A stretch of DNA of 36,599 nt, taken from the NCBI GenBank assembly GCA_902783315.1, contig CACZQK010000002.1:1-36599 (forward strand). The letters are read 5' to 3'. The stretch is from an uncultured Erysipelotrichaceae bacterium (lineage in GTDB: Bacteria; Bacillota_I; Bacilli_A; RF39; UBA660). This document shows positions 1,993 to 7,409 of this stretch, in pieces (positions within the stretch are counted from its first letter, which is position 1; each line of letters opens with the position of its first letter). The notes under the pieces were generated by a model that saw only the letters and a program-made list of their open reading frames with translations, searched no databases and had not been told where the DNA came from. A program made the translations under genes and the position numbers.

Positions 1993-2021
1993 TTGTATAC
2001 AACTAAAAAATATGTTAAAAT
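1993..2021 (+). promoter_or_regulatory. Sigma-A promoter for the bacteriocin leader RNA and operon
   Basis: The -35 TTGTAT (1993-1998) is followed by a 17-base spacer and the -10 TAAAAT (2016-2021), with the extended TG at 2013-2014. The expected transcription start, about 2027-2028, coincides with the first base of the leader stem described next. Confidence 0.7.
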
Positions 2022-2025
2022 GTAG

Positions 2026-2140
2026 TGGGATAATATTAGAAAAATAATTTTGTTTTTTTGAAGTCTTATCAATTATCACGCGTTTGGTTAAGATCTTATA
2101 ATGATATTTATCCCAAGAAGAGGAAACTCTTCTTTTTTTT
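2026..2140 (+). ncRNA. Structured leader RNA ending in an intrinsic terminator
   Basis: The predicted transcript starts in UGGGAUAA (2026-2033), which pairs perfectly with UUAUCCCA (2108-2115). The stem continues as UAUUA (2034-2038) with UGAUA (2102-2106) across one bulge. Inside it, AAGUCUUA and UAAGAUCUU around 2060-2098 form a second helix. Directly behind comes a terminator: AGAAGAG (2116-2122), GAAA loop, CUCUUCU (2127-2133), U run to 2140. The bacteriocin exporter starts 54 bases later, so the element is either an attenuator/riboswitch-like leader or a free small RNA of about 110 nt. It matches no riboswitch consensus I know; there is no T-box, purine or SAM signature. Confidence 0.6.
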
Positions 2141-2193
2141 GGACAAAAAATATAACATTGCAAATAATAAGATAGGAGGTGAAAGTAATATAA

Positions 2194-4269
2194 GTGAAGG
2201 TAGTTCTACAAGATGGTATAAAAGATTGTGGAATTTGTTGCCTATTATCTATTATTCGATTTTATGGGGGAGATGTATCGAAAGAATATTTAAGAGAAAT
2301 AACAAATACTACAAAAGAAGGAGTCTCTTTTTATGATTTAATAGAAGCCGCTAAAATACTGGGCTTTGAAGCAATAGGTGTTACAGGAAAATTAGAAGAT
2401 ATAAATGTAAATAACTTACCATGTATTGTTCACTTTATTGTAAATAAAAGCTATAAGCACTTTATTGTTCTATACCAAATTGATAAAAAGAAACGAAATG
2501 TTATAATAATGGATCCAGCAAAAGGAAAAAGAACACTTTCTGCTGCTGAATTTCGATTACTAACAAGCTCTAATTATCTTTTTCTAACACCTATAAAGAA
2601 ACTACCAAAATTTGAAAAAAGAAAAAAGATTTATGAAAATATTAAAATTAAGTTTCAAAAAAATAAAAGCATATTTTTTCAAATTGCTCTACTAACTTTT
2701 TCATACTTTATTCTAAATATTATTACATCTTTTCATTTTAAATACATTTTTGAATATGCAATAAACTATAATATTTCAGATAATCTTTTTTTTATTAGTT
2801 ATTGGCTATGTTATGCCTATTTATTAAAAAATTTAAACATATTTTTTAGAAATATATTATTAACAAAATGGACTTTAATCTTTGATGATGAAACAACATC
2901 CTTTGCTTATAAGCAAATACTTTTACTTCCATATTTATATTATAAAAACAGAACTTCAGGAGAAGTTATTTCAAGATTCAAAGATTTAAATACCATTAGA
3001 AGTTTCCTAAGCAACTTTTTTTGCATTTTAACAACAGAATTTATCAGTATGATTATATTTTATATGATAATGAGAAAATATAGTAATAGTTTAACTATGA
3101 TAATGATGATTTCGATATTATTATTAAGTATCAGTTCTTTAACTTTTTATAAACAAAAGAAAAAGCAAATAAGACTAATTAGCAAAGGTGAAGATAAAGT
3201 AAATTCATATATAATTCAAGGTGTTATGAATGTAGATACTATTAAAGGATTTCATCTAGAAAAACGTTTAATAGATAAATTTTCGCTTCAATATAAGAAA
3301 TTTCTGGAAACAATTTATAATGCTAAATTCATAGAAGAATTACACAATTTAATCAAAGAAACTATCGAAAATATAATAAATATTATAATATATGGATTAG
3401 GAGCTTTCTACATTATTAAAGGAAAGTTAACTTTAAGCAATTTTATTTTATATCAAGTTTTCCTAAATTATTTTAAAAATAACTTTCAATCTATCATTAT
3501 GTTAATAGAAGAGTATAGCTCTTATAAAGTTGCCTTAGAAAGAATAGAAGATATTTTTATGATTAGCAAAGACAGTTTTGATAATAATTATTTTTATCTA
3601 TCGTACCAATTAAAGGGTGATATAGTATTTAAAAATATAAATTACAAAGTAGGAAGAAAAGTCTTACTAAACAGACTAAACTTAACAATTAAACAGGGAG
3701 AAAAGGTTTTACTAAGTGGAGAAAGTGGAAGTGGAAAAAGTACTCTGTTAAAGATGTTACTTCGATATATTGAAGTTGATTATGGTCATATTCAAATAGA
3801 TAATATTGATATTAACCATTATCATTTAGAAAATATAAGAACAAACATTACCTATGTCACCAGTAATGAATATCTTTTTACAGATACTTTAAAAAACAAT
3901 ATTCTATTATATAAAGAATATCAAGAAGAAGAATTTCAAAAAGTATGTAAAATATGCTTTGTAAATGACATAATAGAAAACAGAATCATAGGTTATGACT
4001 CATTAATTGAAGAAAATGGCTTTAACCTAAGTACTGGAGAAAGACAAAGAATCGTTTTAGCAAGAAGCATTTTAAGAAAAAGTAATATTTATATTTTTGA
4101 CGAGGCCTTATCGGGAATAGACATTGAAAGAGAAAGAAAAATTTTAAGAGGAATTTTTTTATATCTACAGGATAAAACAATAATTGTTATATCACACCGT
4201 TTTAATAATAAAAAATATTTTAATAGAATTTTAAAAATAGAAAGTGGAAGAATATTTGAAAATACATAA
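2194..4269 (+). CDS. Bacteriocin ABC exporter with N-terminal C39 peptidase
   Basis: This is a peptidase-containing ABC transporter of the LagD/ComA type. It cuts leader peptides behind a double glycine and exports the mature peptide. The 691-aa protein begins with the C39 domain: Gln6, catalytic Cys12 in DCGICC, His89 in KHF and Asp107 in MDP. Membrane segments lie at about 160-180, 196-220, 277-318 and 388-430. The ATPase follows with Walker A GESGSGKST (509-517), signature LSTGE (612-616), Walker B IYIFDE (632-637) and His668. The Q-loop Gln appears to be Ser557 (YVTSNEYLF). The start is GTG, directly behind an in-frame TAA, with AGGAGGTG at 2174-2181. The two peptide genes downstream are the evident substrates. 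Confidence 0.92.
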   Translation: MKVVLQDGIKDCGICCLLSIIRFYGGDVSKEYLREITNTTKEGVSFYDLIEAAKILGFEAIGVTGKLEDINVNNLPCIVHFIVNKSYKHFIVLYQIDKKKRNVIIMDPAKGKRTLSAAEFRLLTSSNYLFLTPIKKLPKFEKRKKIYENIKIKFQKNKSIFFQIALLTFSYFILNIITSFHFKYIFEYAINYNISDNLFFISYWLCYAYLLKNLNIFFRNILLTKWTLIFDDETTSFAYKQILLLPYLYYKNRTSGEVISRFKDLNTIRSFLSNFFCILTTEFISMIIFYMIMRKYSNSLTMIMMISILLLSISSLTFYKQKKKQIRLISKGEDKVNSYIIQGVMNVDTIKGFHLEKRLIDKFSLQYKKFLETIYNAKFIEELHNLIKETIENIINIIIYGLGAFYIIKGKLTLSNFILYQVFLNYFKNNFQSIIMLIEEYSSYKVALERIEDIFMISKDSFDNNYFYLSYQLKGDIVFKNINYKVGRKVLLNRLNLTIKQGEKVLLSGESGSGKSTLLKMLLRYIEVDYGHIQIDNIDINHYHLENIRTNITYVTSNEYLFTDTLKNNILLYKEYQEEEFQKVCKICFVNDIIENRIIGYDSLIEENGFNLSTGERQRIVLARSILRKSNIYIFDEALSGIDIERERKILRGIFLYLQDKTIIVISHRFNNKKYFNRILKIESGRIFENT

Positions 4270-4672
4270 TTATGAAAAAAGAAATTTAATAACAACAACA
4301 ATTGTAGTATTAATAGTAATAGAAATTTCAACAGTACTACTTTTATTTAAAACAAAAAGATTTTCATATCAAAAAATAACAGGAGTTATAACAAAGGAAA
4401 ACTTAATTACGATTATTGCAACAAAAGAGGAAAGAAAAAAAATCTATCAAAACAATAAAATTTATTTGAATGATAAGGTATTTATTTATAGGATAGAAGA
4501 AGATAGAGGTTTTATTTTAAAGAAGAATAACATAAAATACTATGAAATTATAATAATAACAAAAACAAAATTAAAACAAGGGATGAATGATACAGTAAAT
4601 ATGAGTATCAAAGATAAGAAAAAAACAATTATAAAAATGATAAAAGATATATGGGTAGGTGATAATAATTAA
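4244..4672 (+). CDS. Small membrane-anchored exporter accessory protein, HlyD-like C-terminus
   Basis: The 142-aa protein has one N-terminal membrane segment (about 14-35) and then an extracytoplasmic, beta-rich, basic domain. Its end (LKQGMNDTVNMSI followed by a charged amphipathic helix) resembles the last strand-and-tail of HlyD/MFP accessory proteins that work with C39 exporters. The long coiled-coil hairpin and lipoyl halves of normal accessory proteins (over 400 aa) are missing. The gene overlaps the exporter by 26 bases and the first peptide gene by about 14, so translation is coupled. The start is uncertain: GTG at 4244 has a poor ribosome-binding site, while TTG at 4256 has GGAAG five bases upstream. 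An immunity function is a possible alternative. Confidence 0.6.
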   Translation: MEEYLKIHNYEKRNLITTTIVVLIVIEISTVLLLFKTKRFSYQKITGVITKENLITIIATKEERKKIYQNNKIYLNDKVFIYRIEEDRGFILKKNNIKYYEIIIITKTKLKQGMNDTVNMSIKDKKKTIIKMIKDIWVGDNN

Positions 4673-4814
4673 AGAGATAAAAGAAGAACAATTAGAAAAT
4701 ATTAAAGGAGGCGCAACGATTTCTGTTTGGGCAGGAATCGCCATAGCAGCAATTGTTGTTTTCATTAGTGGAATTGTTGAAGGAATAACAAATCCTGCAA
4801 AATGTAGTGGATGA
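4659..4814 (+). CDS. Double-glycine bacteriocin peptide 1 (class IIb type)
   Basis: A 51-aa precursor with leader KEIKEEQLENIKGG. It has the usual hydrophobics at -4, -7, -12 and -15 and Gly at -2 and -1, which suits the C39 exporter upstream. The 33-residue core is hydrophobic, carries a GxxxG motif (GIVEG) and ends in NPAKCSG with a single Cys. The start is unusual. GTG at 4659 overlaps the only good Shine-Dalgarno (TAGGTG, 4656-4661), whereas ATT at 4668 sits six bases behind that box, the spacing seen at GGTGATAA-ATG starts elsewhere in the window. It is followed by peptide 2 with an ATGA overlap. Confidence 0.8.
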   Translation: MIIIKEIKEEQLENIKGGATISVWAGIAIAAIVVFISGIVEGITNPAKCSG

Positions 4815-4984
4815 AAAAGATAGAAGAAAAAGAACTAGAAGAGATTCTAGGAGGAAATACCAGCATAAGTGGCCCAATCATAAATGCAATAACAAATGTA
4901 ATAAAATTATTAAAAGATGCAGGATATTCTCTAGGATCTGGACTTAGAAGAATAGGCGAAAATAACCTATGTCCCTTGGAATAA
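4811..4984 (+). CDS. Double-glycine bacteriocin peptide 2 (class IIb type)
   Basis: A 57-aa precursor with leader MKKIEEKELEEILGG, which has Ile-4, Leu-7, Glu-8 and Ile-12 before the Gly-Gly site. The 42-residue core starts NTSISGP, has an amphipathic basic middle with a GxxxG motif (GYSLG) and RRIG, and ends in NLCPLE with one Cys. Its ATG overlaps the stop of peptide 1 (ATGA), and there is no strong Shine-Dalgarno of its own. Coupled, equimolar synthesis therefore looks likely, as expected for two-peptide bacteriocins. Both cores have GxxxG and one C-terminal Cys. Target and activity cannot be read from the sequence. Confidence 0.8.
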   Translation: MKKIEEKELEEILGGNTSISGPIINAITNVIKLLKDAGYSLGSGLRRIGENNLCPLE

Positions 4985-5105
4985 CATAGAAAAAAGAACT
5001 TCATTTTATAAAACTTAATTTTTCTAAAAATAGCCCTTTATTAAGAATATTTGCTCGAATTTTGTCTATTTTTGTTGTATTTTAACAAAAAAAATATAAA
5101 AACAG

Positions 5106-5978: not shown

Positions 5979-6010
5979 CAATCAAAACATATATTTAATT
6001 AGGTGATATG

Positions 6011-6250
6011 ATGTTTGAAAGAGTAGACAACTTTTTAAATGATAGAGAATTCCGTTTTACAATTTATGAAAATAAGATTCATATTATTAATTTTAAACGA
6101 ATTATTAGTTTAGAAGAAAATAATGCTTCCTTCCAAAGCGATAAAAAAATAATTCATGTGACAGGAACTGATTTAGTAGTAAGAAGACTATTAGACGAAG
6201 AAATTATAATAACTGGAACGATTTCAAAAATAGAGGTTCTAAATGAATAA
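6011..6250 (+). CDS. yqfC: YqfC (YabP/YqfC family) sporulation protein
   Basis: The 79-aa protein belongs to the YabP/YqfC family, made in the mother cell during sporulation. Visible signatures are ENKIHIINFKRIISLEEN, a LVVRRLLDEEIIITGTI block and the closing IxKIEVLN, which match YqfC of Bacillus. Two ATGs are adjacent; the one at 6011 has AGGTG five bases upstream and the one at 6008 only two, so 6011 is preferred. CATATATT at 5988-5995 resembles a sigma-E -10, but no -35 is clear. The gene overlaps yqfD by 8 bases, the usual pairing. Confidence 0.87.
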   Translation: MFERVDNFLNDREFRFTIYENKIHIINFKRIISLEENNASFQSDKKIIHVTGTDLVVRRLLDEEIIITGTISKIEVLNE

Positions 6251-7409
6251 CAAATTAAAAATAGAAATCACTGGAAAAAACCCAATAAGCTTTTTAAAAG
6301 AATTAATAAGAAAAAGAATAAATATTTATTCTTTAGATAAAACAGATAAAAGTATTCAAATAATGATAGATAAAGTTGATTATGAAAAAATAAAAGAGAT
6401 TAAAACAACCTATCAAATAAAGATAACAAAAAGATATGGAATCAATAAATTACTTTTTTTTATAAAAAGAAACAACTTACTAATTACATTTTTTAGTATT
6501 GGATTAATACTAATTATTTTATTATCAAACATTGTCTTTCAAATAGAAATTATTCATCCTAATAAAAAAATAAGAGAATTAGTAAAAAAAGATTTAGAAG
6601 AATTTGGTCTTAAAAAATATCATTTTAAAATAGATTATCAACAAAAAGAAGAAATAAAGAAAAAGATATTAGAAAAAGAAAAAAAGAAAATTGAATGGAT
6701 AGAAATAGATAAAAAAGGAACAAAGTATATTGTAAAAGTGATGATACGAAAAATGCCCAAAAAAGAGAAAGAATGCTCACCTAGAAGTATTATTGCTAAG
6801 AAAAATGCTATTATTAAAAAAATAACAGCATCGAAAGGAGAAATCATAAAAAAACAAAATGACTACGTTGAAAAAGGGGATGTTTTAATTAGTGGATTAA
6901 TCTATAACAAAGAAACAATAACTTCTAAAACATGTGCTACAGGTAAAGTATATGGAGAAACGTGGTATACTGTAAAAATAGTAATGCCAAAAGAATATAA
7001 AGTTATTACAACCAAGAAAAACAAAACATGGGGATTTCACTATCAAATATTAGGAAAAGAAAAAAATTTTGGTAACAAATTTTATACCTTTGAAAAAAAA
7101 GAGTACAATATAATAGACAGTAGAATTTTATTATCAAAGCTTGGCATTGTCCAATACAAAGAAACAGAAGAAAAATATATAAAATATACCAAAAAAGAAA
7201 TTTATGATATTGCCACAAAAAAAGCTACAAAAAAAGTCCAAAAGAGACTCTCAAAAGAAGAAAAGATAATTGATAAAAAAGTTTTGAAAAACAAAGTGAA
7301 AAATAGTAAAATAGAGATAGATATATTTTTTAAAGTGGAAGAAGACATATCAAGTTATGTAGATATAAGTGATATAAATATAGAAGAAGAAAATAAAAAA
7401 GAGAGGTGA
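6243..7409 (+). CDS. yqfD: YqfD sporulation membrane protein
   Basis: YqfD is a mother-cell sporulation protein of unknown mechanism, conserved in spore formers. The 388-aa product has a cytoplasmic N-terminal domain of about 70 residues, a membrane segment at about 80-98 (LITFFSIGLILIILLSNIVF) and a large extracytoplasmic beta domain. The central hallmark is easy to see: IIAKKNAIIKKITASKGE, DYVEKGDVLISG and, further on, a GKVYGETWY block. Length matches the family. The C-terminus is unusually rich in Lys and Glu, like the rest of this genome. Coupled to yqfC by an 8-base overlap. In B. subtilis phoH and yqfF follow; here a VanZ-like gene does. Confidence 0.9.
   Translation: MNNKLKIEITGKNPISFLKELIRKRINIYSLDKTDKSIQIMIDKVDYEKIKEIKTTYQIKITKRYGINKLLFFIKRNNLLITFFSIGLILIILLSNIVFQIEIIHPNKKIRELVKKDLEEFGLKKYHFKIDYQQKEEIKKKILEKEKKKIEWIEIDKKGTKYIVKVMIRKMPKKEKECSPRSIIAKKNAIIKKITASKGEIIKKQNDYVEKGDVLISGLIYNKETITSKTCATGKVYGETWYTVKIVMPKEYKVITTKKNKTWGFHYQILGKEKNFGNKFYTFEKKEYNIIDSRILLSKLGIVQYKETEEKYIKYTKKEIYDIATKKATKKVQKRLSKEEKIIDKKVLKNKVKNSKIEIDIFFKVEEDISSYVDISDINIEEENKKER

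Follow-up and report, generated by a model that had tools for sequence, protein, structure and literature searches.

We analyzed a 36,599-nucleotide (nt) stretch of DNA from an uncultured Erysipelotrichaceae bacterium (RF39; UBA660; contig CACZQK010000002.1, positions 1-36,599), hereafter called the window, which carries a compact locus for an exporter with a C39 peptidase domain, a small accessory protein and a pair of double-glycine peptides, P1 and P2. With a probability of about 0.6, we read this locus as encoding a two-peptide bacteriocin of the class IIb type and as part of the core genome of the order, the antimicrobial activity being predicted from sequence. The original prediction, made from the window alone, had described the four genes as one overlapping unit, and their coordinates bear this out. 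On the forward strand, which also holds the structured RNA, the promoters and the P3 remnant described below, the genes of the exporter (2194..4269; 691 amino acids [aa], GTG start, intact QDGIKDCG motif), the accessory protein (4244..4672; 142 aa), the P1 precursor (4659..4814) and the P2 precursor (4811..4984) overlap by 26, 14, and 4 nt to form a single unit at 2194-4984. Beyond what had been described before, there is a third small open reading frame, P3, that the window has lost, a structured RNA at 2026-2142, and a conserved promoter.

The arrangement of these genes is strongly conserved. Among 80 family loci, picked down the ranking of P2 matches, the exporter gene lies directly upstream of P1-P2 in 77. 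Ratios of non-synonymous to synonymous substitution rates (dN/dS) are mostly about 0.1-0.4 for P1, P2, and P3, as estimated from close pairs, distant pairs being saturated. Given the position of the exporter and the few non-synonymous changes in close pairs, the arrangement is therefore not a product of chance. P1 precedes P2 in the 80 extracted loci except where P1 is damaged, and profile searches place the two side by side in 78 of them, the other two holding P1 remnants; this settles the question, posed with the original prediction, of whether the two peptides co-occur.

The P1 precursor (51 aa) consists of an 18-aa double-glycine leader and a hydrophobic 33-aa core, ATISVWAGIAIAAIVVFISGIVEGITNPAKCSG, while that of P2 (57 aa) combines a 15-aa double-glycine leader with a 42-aa core, NTSISGPIINAITNVIKLLKDAGYSLGSGLRRIGENNLCPLE, in which the GxxxG motif extends to GxxxGxxxRR. 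As had been claimed, both cores carry GxxxG and a single Cys, and the count is exactly one in each. Across 77 to 79 aligned sequences, both GxxxG glycines and the C-terminal Cys of P1 are invariant (77/77), as is the C-terminal Cys of P2 (79/79), with the two P2 glycines present in 78/79 and 79/79. In a larger set, 142 of 147 P1 sequences contain GxxxGxxxPxxC, and in 129 of 145 P1-P2 pairs, each core contains exactly one Cys. A core with one Cys can form no intramolecular bond, and the simplest reading suggests a disulfide between P1 and P2. Mutual information among P1, P2, and P3 was higher than in shuffled pairs, but shared ancestry confounds this signal, as do the overlapping frames in the case of P2 and P3, and it was not used.

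P1 also resembles an attachment site of prophages or similar elements, for its gene is cut at identical codons (GVxDG^YVRP; DNA GATGG^TTATGT) in three genomes. The P1 remnant lies beside a gene for a 526-aa serine recombinase in L100 (G126) and beside genes for a phage holin, an endolysin, and a siphovirus protein in L081 (G015); in L216 (G339), it is followed by a ParB-like gene.

Adjacent double-glycine precursors, GxxxG in both cores, and a C39 exporter accompanied by an accessory gene are what the locus shares with the class IIb systems of the lactobin A/cerein 7B type (NCBIfam model TIGR03949), lactococcin G, and carnobacteriocin XY. P1 passes TIGR03949, a 45-position model that includes the leader, with 22.5 bits against a cut-off of 21.5, and the same model matches 22 of 30 P1 relatives at an E value of ≤0.01. 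P2 scored above no cut-off among Pfam and NCBIfam-type models, TIGR03949 included. The class IIb assignment of the original prediction is thus upheld by the pair itself, the dedicated exporter, and the P1 score, and qualified by the immunity gene, which is absent from the window but has a candidate, P3, in most relatives. The locus further differs from described class IIb types in the near-invariant Cys of each core and in being nearly universal in its order. The class IIb types named in reference PMC10100652 have no Cys, apart from gallocin A, which has two per peptide and forms intramolecular bonds, and for which the Cys residues matter (PMC10100652). In contrast to gallocin A, the one Cys per core found here would bond only between chains. 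Sequence searches of the PDB with the accessory, P1, and P2 profiles returned nothing useful, and no close described relative of the pair was found in plasmids, phages, PDB sequences, or family libraries, in line with the earlier impression that neither core has an obvious known match.

The leaders invite another interpretation, in which P1 and P2 would be quorum-sensing pheromones akin to ComC or to the inducing peptides of bacteriocin clusters. They weakly match the ComC and EntF induction-factor models, and the exporter resembles ComA. However, the conserved neighbors in the 80 loci include no sensor kinase or response regulator, a pairing that the original prediction had named as evidence against it; moreover, two different peptides are kept together, and their cores are long and hydrophobic with invariant positions near the end. 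We regard a pheromone function as very improbable.

The distribution of the locus sets it apart. A translated search found a P2 relative in 171 of 193 sampled family genomes. With a profile, P2 was detected in 359 of 385 sampled genomes of the order, all of which belong to one family, and in 289 of the 305 good ones, usually as one strong match. Of 20 P2-negative genomes, 15 have no C39 match, and the remaining five show an exporter at a contig end (three), an insertion in P1 (one), or a weak match in another protein (one). Exporter and peptides are thus kept or lost together, and the locus is a core locus of the order rather than a patchy bacteriocin. In samples of the class and the phylum, no full-length P2 match was found beyond the family, and the matches obtained there covered mainly the leader and were set aside as other double-glycine peptides; plasmids, phages, and viral contigs contained no P2. 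Scanning 84,980 species for one conserved stretch, with a strict pattern that distant relatives elsewhere could escape, yielded 32 loci, all in metagenome-assembled genomes labeled as uncultured Bacilli, Bacillales or Tenericutes, or as Candidatus Faecisoma. The earlier description as an undescribed pair of uncultured gut Bacilli therefore holds as far as the missing close relative is concerned, but what it took for one odd pair is a near-universal locus of a whole order. In small one-contig genomes of two other families of the class (L165 and L167-L176; class f4 and f15 genomes), we noticed the same double-glycine leader joined to unrelated cores, a hint that these genomes have further peptides exported by C39 proteins.

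In 89 of 152 loci, P3 begins within the last P2 codons, mostly 13 or 16 nt before the P2 end. It encodes a peptide of about 40-60 aa with one hydrophobic segment, no double-glycine leader, and a GxxxGxxxR motif close to the C-terminal end, in many cases with a Cys behind it. The P3 profile aligns with the final 25 residues of P2, its C-terminal half (probability 90.5; E value 1.4e-6), while no match was obtained to P1 (probability 0.1) and no family in Pfam. This likeness is not an effect of the overlap because the matched part of P3 sits behind the P2 stop codon. In the window, a remnant at 4969..4989 retains the start codon and encodes MSLGIT before a stop, whereas congener G013 (L038) has an intact P3 at the same offset of -16. 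Loss also occurred in the sister genome G885 and in other lineages, one locus (L228) bears a decayed copy, and on the exporter tree (76 loci), parsimony counts 18 changes in the presence of P3. Such losses speak against an obligatory immunity role.

The window cluster contains no dedicated immunity gene, and P3 is the best candidate for one in the relatives that have it. Two precedents make an immunity function likely. CbnZ, a 42-aa peptide that has one membrane segment and whose gene directly follows cbnXY, confers 250-fold protection (PMC6957408), and P3 matches it in size and occupies the corresponding place right behind the pair. Gallocin A likewise comprises two peptides (GllA1, GllA2) and a third operon gene, GIP, which gives immunity and is proposed to act by mimicking the peptides (PMC10100652); the likeness of GIP rests on models, whereas P3 resembles P2 in sequence. 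Its GxxxGxxxR and frequent C-terminal Cys, both shared with P2, together with its production from the same unit, could instead speak for P3 as a third exported component of a three-peptide system. Processing by the C39 exporter is, however, not expected of a peptide lacking a double-glycine leader, and one-segment membrane peptides at this position give immunity in known systems, so that we think a third exported component highly unlikely.

Expression of the unit seems to have its own signal. At a fixed distance from the ribosome-binding site of the exporter gene, the family conserves AGGA ... CGAATAAT, of which the window has a weak copy (GGACA ... GCAAATAAT, 2141..2168). AGGA or GGGA occurs at this distance in 38 of 70 loci, compared with 12 of 168 control genes (Fisher test, 8e-15). 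It is followed by AATAAT or CGAATAAT; the latter has 46 copies in 669 kb, of which 12 are found at this very place. An AGGA-type -35 element and a GAAT-type -10 element at fixed spacing make up the SigH consensus, and the exporter promoter, putatively SigH-dependent, fits it.

Several observations weigh against a bacteriocin. P1 clears the TIGR03949 cut-off only marginally and owes part of this score to the leader, and P2 reaches no cut-off at all. P3 is absent from 63 of the 152 loci, that of the window among them, and a search for orphan P3 genes elsewhere in the P3-less or P2-less genomes tested gave weak matches, none convincing. Bacteriocin genes are usually patchy, and a single copy under purifying selection in ~95% of the good genomes of an order is unusual for one. 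Alternatively, P1 and P2 could be conserved secreted peptides built from bacteriocin-like parts that serve housekeeping, development, or social behavior instead of killing, and P3 would be their membrane partner rather than an immunity peptide. Such a role would agree with the near-universal, single-copy occurrence, the purifying selection in close pairs, the repeated disappearance of P3 from loci whose P1 and P2 are intact, and a SigH-like promoter, which suggests a growth-phase programme. On the other hand, GxxxG in both peptides, hydrophobic cores, the class IIb model match, and a dedicated exporter are the usual marks of pore formers, and the whole locus can be lost. We consider a non-killing role unlikely, although it is the strongest of the competitors.

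If the bacteriocin reading is right, the exporter would remove both leaders and release the P1 and P2 cores, which would insert as helices into the membrane of a neighboring cell, P1 being very hydrophobic. There, the two would pack via their GxxxG motifs and be held together by the P1-P2 disulfide. In the producer membrane, P3 would copy the P2 helix and block the complex, and a SigH-type factor would probably drive expression. The species of the window and several others, having lost P3, would have to tolerate the peptides by other means or make weak ones. The fullest version of this scheme is tentative and, taken as a whole, possible rather than probable: that an entire genome-reduced gut order keeps a SigH-controlled core bacteriocin, with a new RNA upstream in one genus, disulfide-joined halves, and P3 as a leaderless, membrane-anchored immunity decoy related to one of the toxin peptides.

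That ~95% of the good genomes in this order of uncultured gut bacteria keep the pair suggests that it is fundamental to their lifestyle. The family also offers some 150 natural variants of a single peptide pair, of which many come with a P2-like third peptide and many others lack it, and both immunity by copying a toxin peptide and the covalent joining of the halves become directly testable.

The exporter, the sole strong C39 match of the genome, contains the Pfam domains Peptidase_C39, ABC_membrane, and ABC_tran. Among solved structures, its best relatives are PCAT1 (4ry2; E value 3e-94) and ComA (8hf4; E value 2e-80), which it resembles over the full length and in having a C39 domain with QDGIKDCG. 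With 346 bits, it misses the cut-off of the bacteriocin_ABC model TIGR01193 (524 bits), and it forms a divergent branch. PADLOC matches were dismissed, as they concern shared ATPase parts only. Exporter distances correlate with those of RpoB (r = 0.48), with three strong splits in conflict; descent is likely mainly vertical, and some exchange between lineages may have occurred.

A structure prediction for the accessory protein (pLDDT confidence score, 93) shows a membrane helix at residues 10-36 and a compact beta domain at 38-128, in agreement with the claim that the HlyD hairpin is missing. Like HlyD/LcnD-type proteins, the model has a helix followed by a beta domain, the latter aligning with their membrane-proximal domain; unlike them, it has neither helical hairpin nor lipoyl domain, and some relatives of the locus have no such protein. 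Comparison of the beta domain with the membrane fusion proteins Spr0693, BesA, MacA, MexA, and AcrA gave Z scores of 6.2-7.6, which unrelated small barrels equal, and the accessory profile gave no sequence match in the PDB; the model is consistent with a relation to these proteins. The "minimal" accessory protein of the original prediction is indeed small and hairpin-less, but this is a trait of the family (56 loci) rather than of the window, and the protein can be missing altogether. In 14 of 76 loci, the exporter gene abuts P1, leaving no room for an accessory gene, and 13 of these 14 also lack P3 (Fisher test, 2e-4, relatedness not corrected for). This series, from a short accessory protein to none, amounts to a natural experiment on the requirements of C39 exporters.

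Upstream of the exporter promoter lies a new structured RNA (2026..2142). Its own promoter (1993..2021) consists of TTGTAT, a 17-nt spacer, and TAAAAT with an extended TATG, and a TATGTTAAAATG-like element is present at the RNA 5' end in relatives, too. The fold is a three-way junction of a terminal stem (2026-2033/2108-2115 in the window) and two hairpins, of which the second has AUCACGCG conserved in its loop (loop AUUAUCACGCG in the window), followed by an intrinsic terminator (2115-2134 plus U run). About 19 of the 31 P2-positive genomes of the genus have this RNA, which is about 115-130 nt long, at the same place before the exporter gene as the window; the motif was found in none of the eight P2-negative genus genomes, and Rfam gave no match. 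The terminal stem, compared across 21 sequences, is paired in 162 of 168 cells (shuffled mean, 122; maximum, 145) and contains 30 double-sided changes (shuffled maximum, 20), pairs being counted from the stem ends since MAFFT alignments misplace this stem. Covariation of the stem is thus strong. The RNA also occurs in some related genera (L291-L309), and in G254 and G877, 700-950 nt separate it from the exporter gene. This gap and the conserved promoter behind the terminator disfavor an attenuator of the exporter. Because the exporter has that promoter of its own, a separate small RNA appears more likely, although read-through may contribute to exporter control. The RNA is a separate candidate regulator.

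As to the surroundings, a gene for a 209-aa protein (1325-1954), without a Pfam or NCBIfam match, is located between lysA and the peptide locus. Downstream, the commonest neighbor is the gene for ribosomal protein S21, as seen in 44 of the 80 loci and likewise in the window. Farther on, the window carries sporulation genes resembling yqfC and yqfD (6008-7409), which agrees with descent from sporulating ancestors and with a SigH-type regulon.
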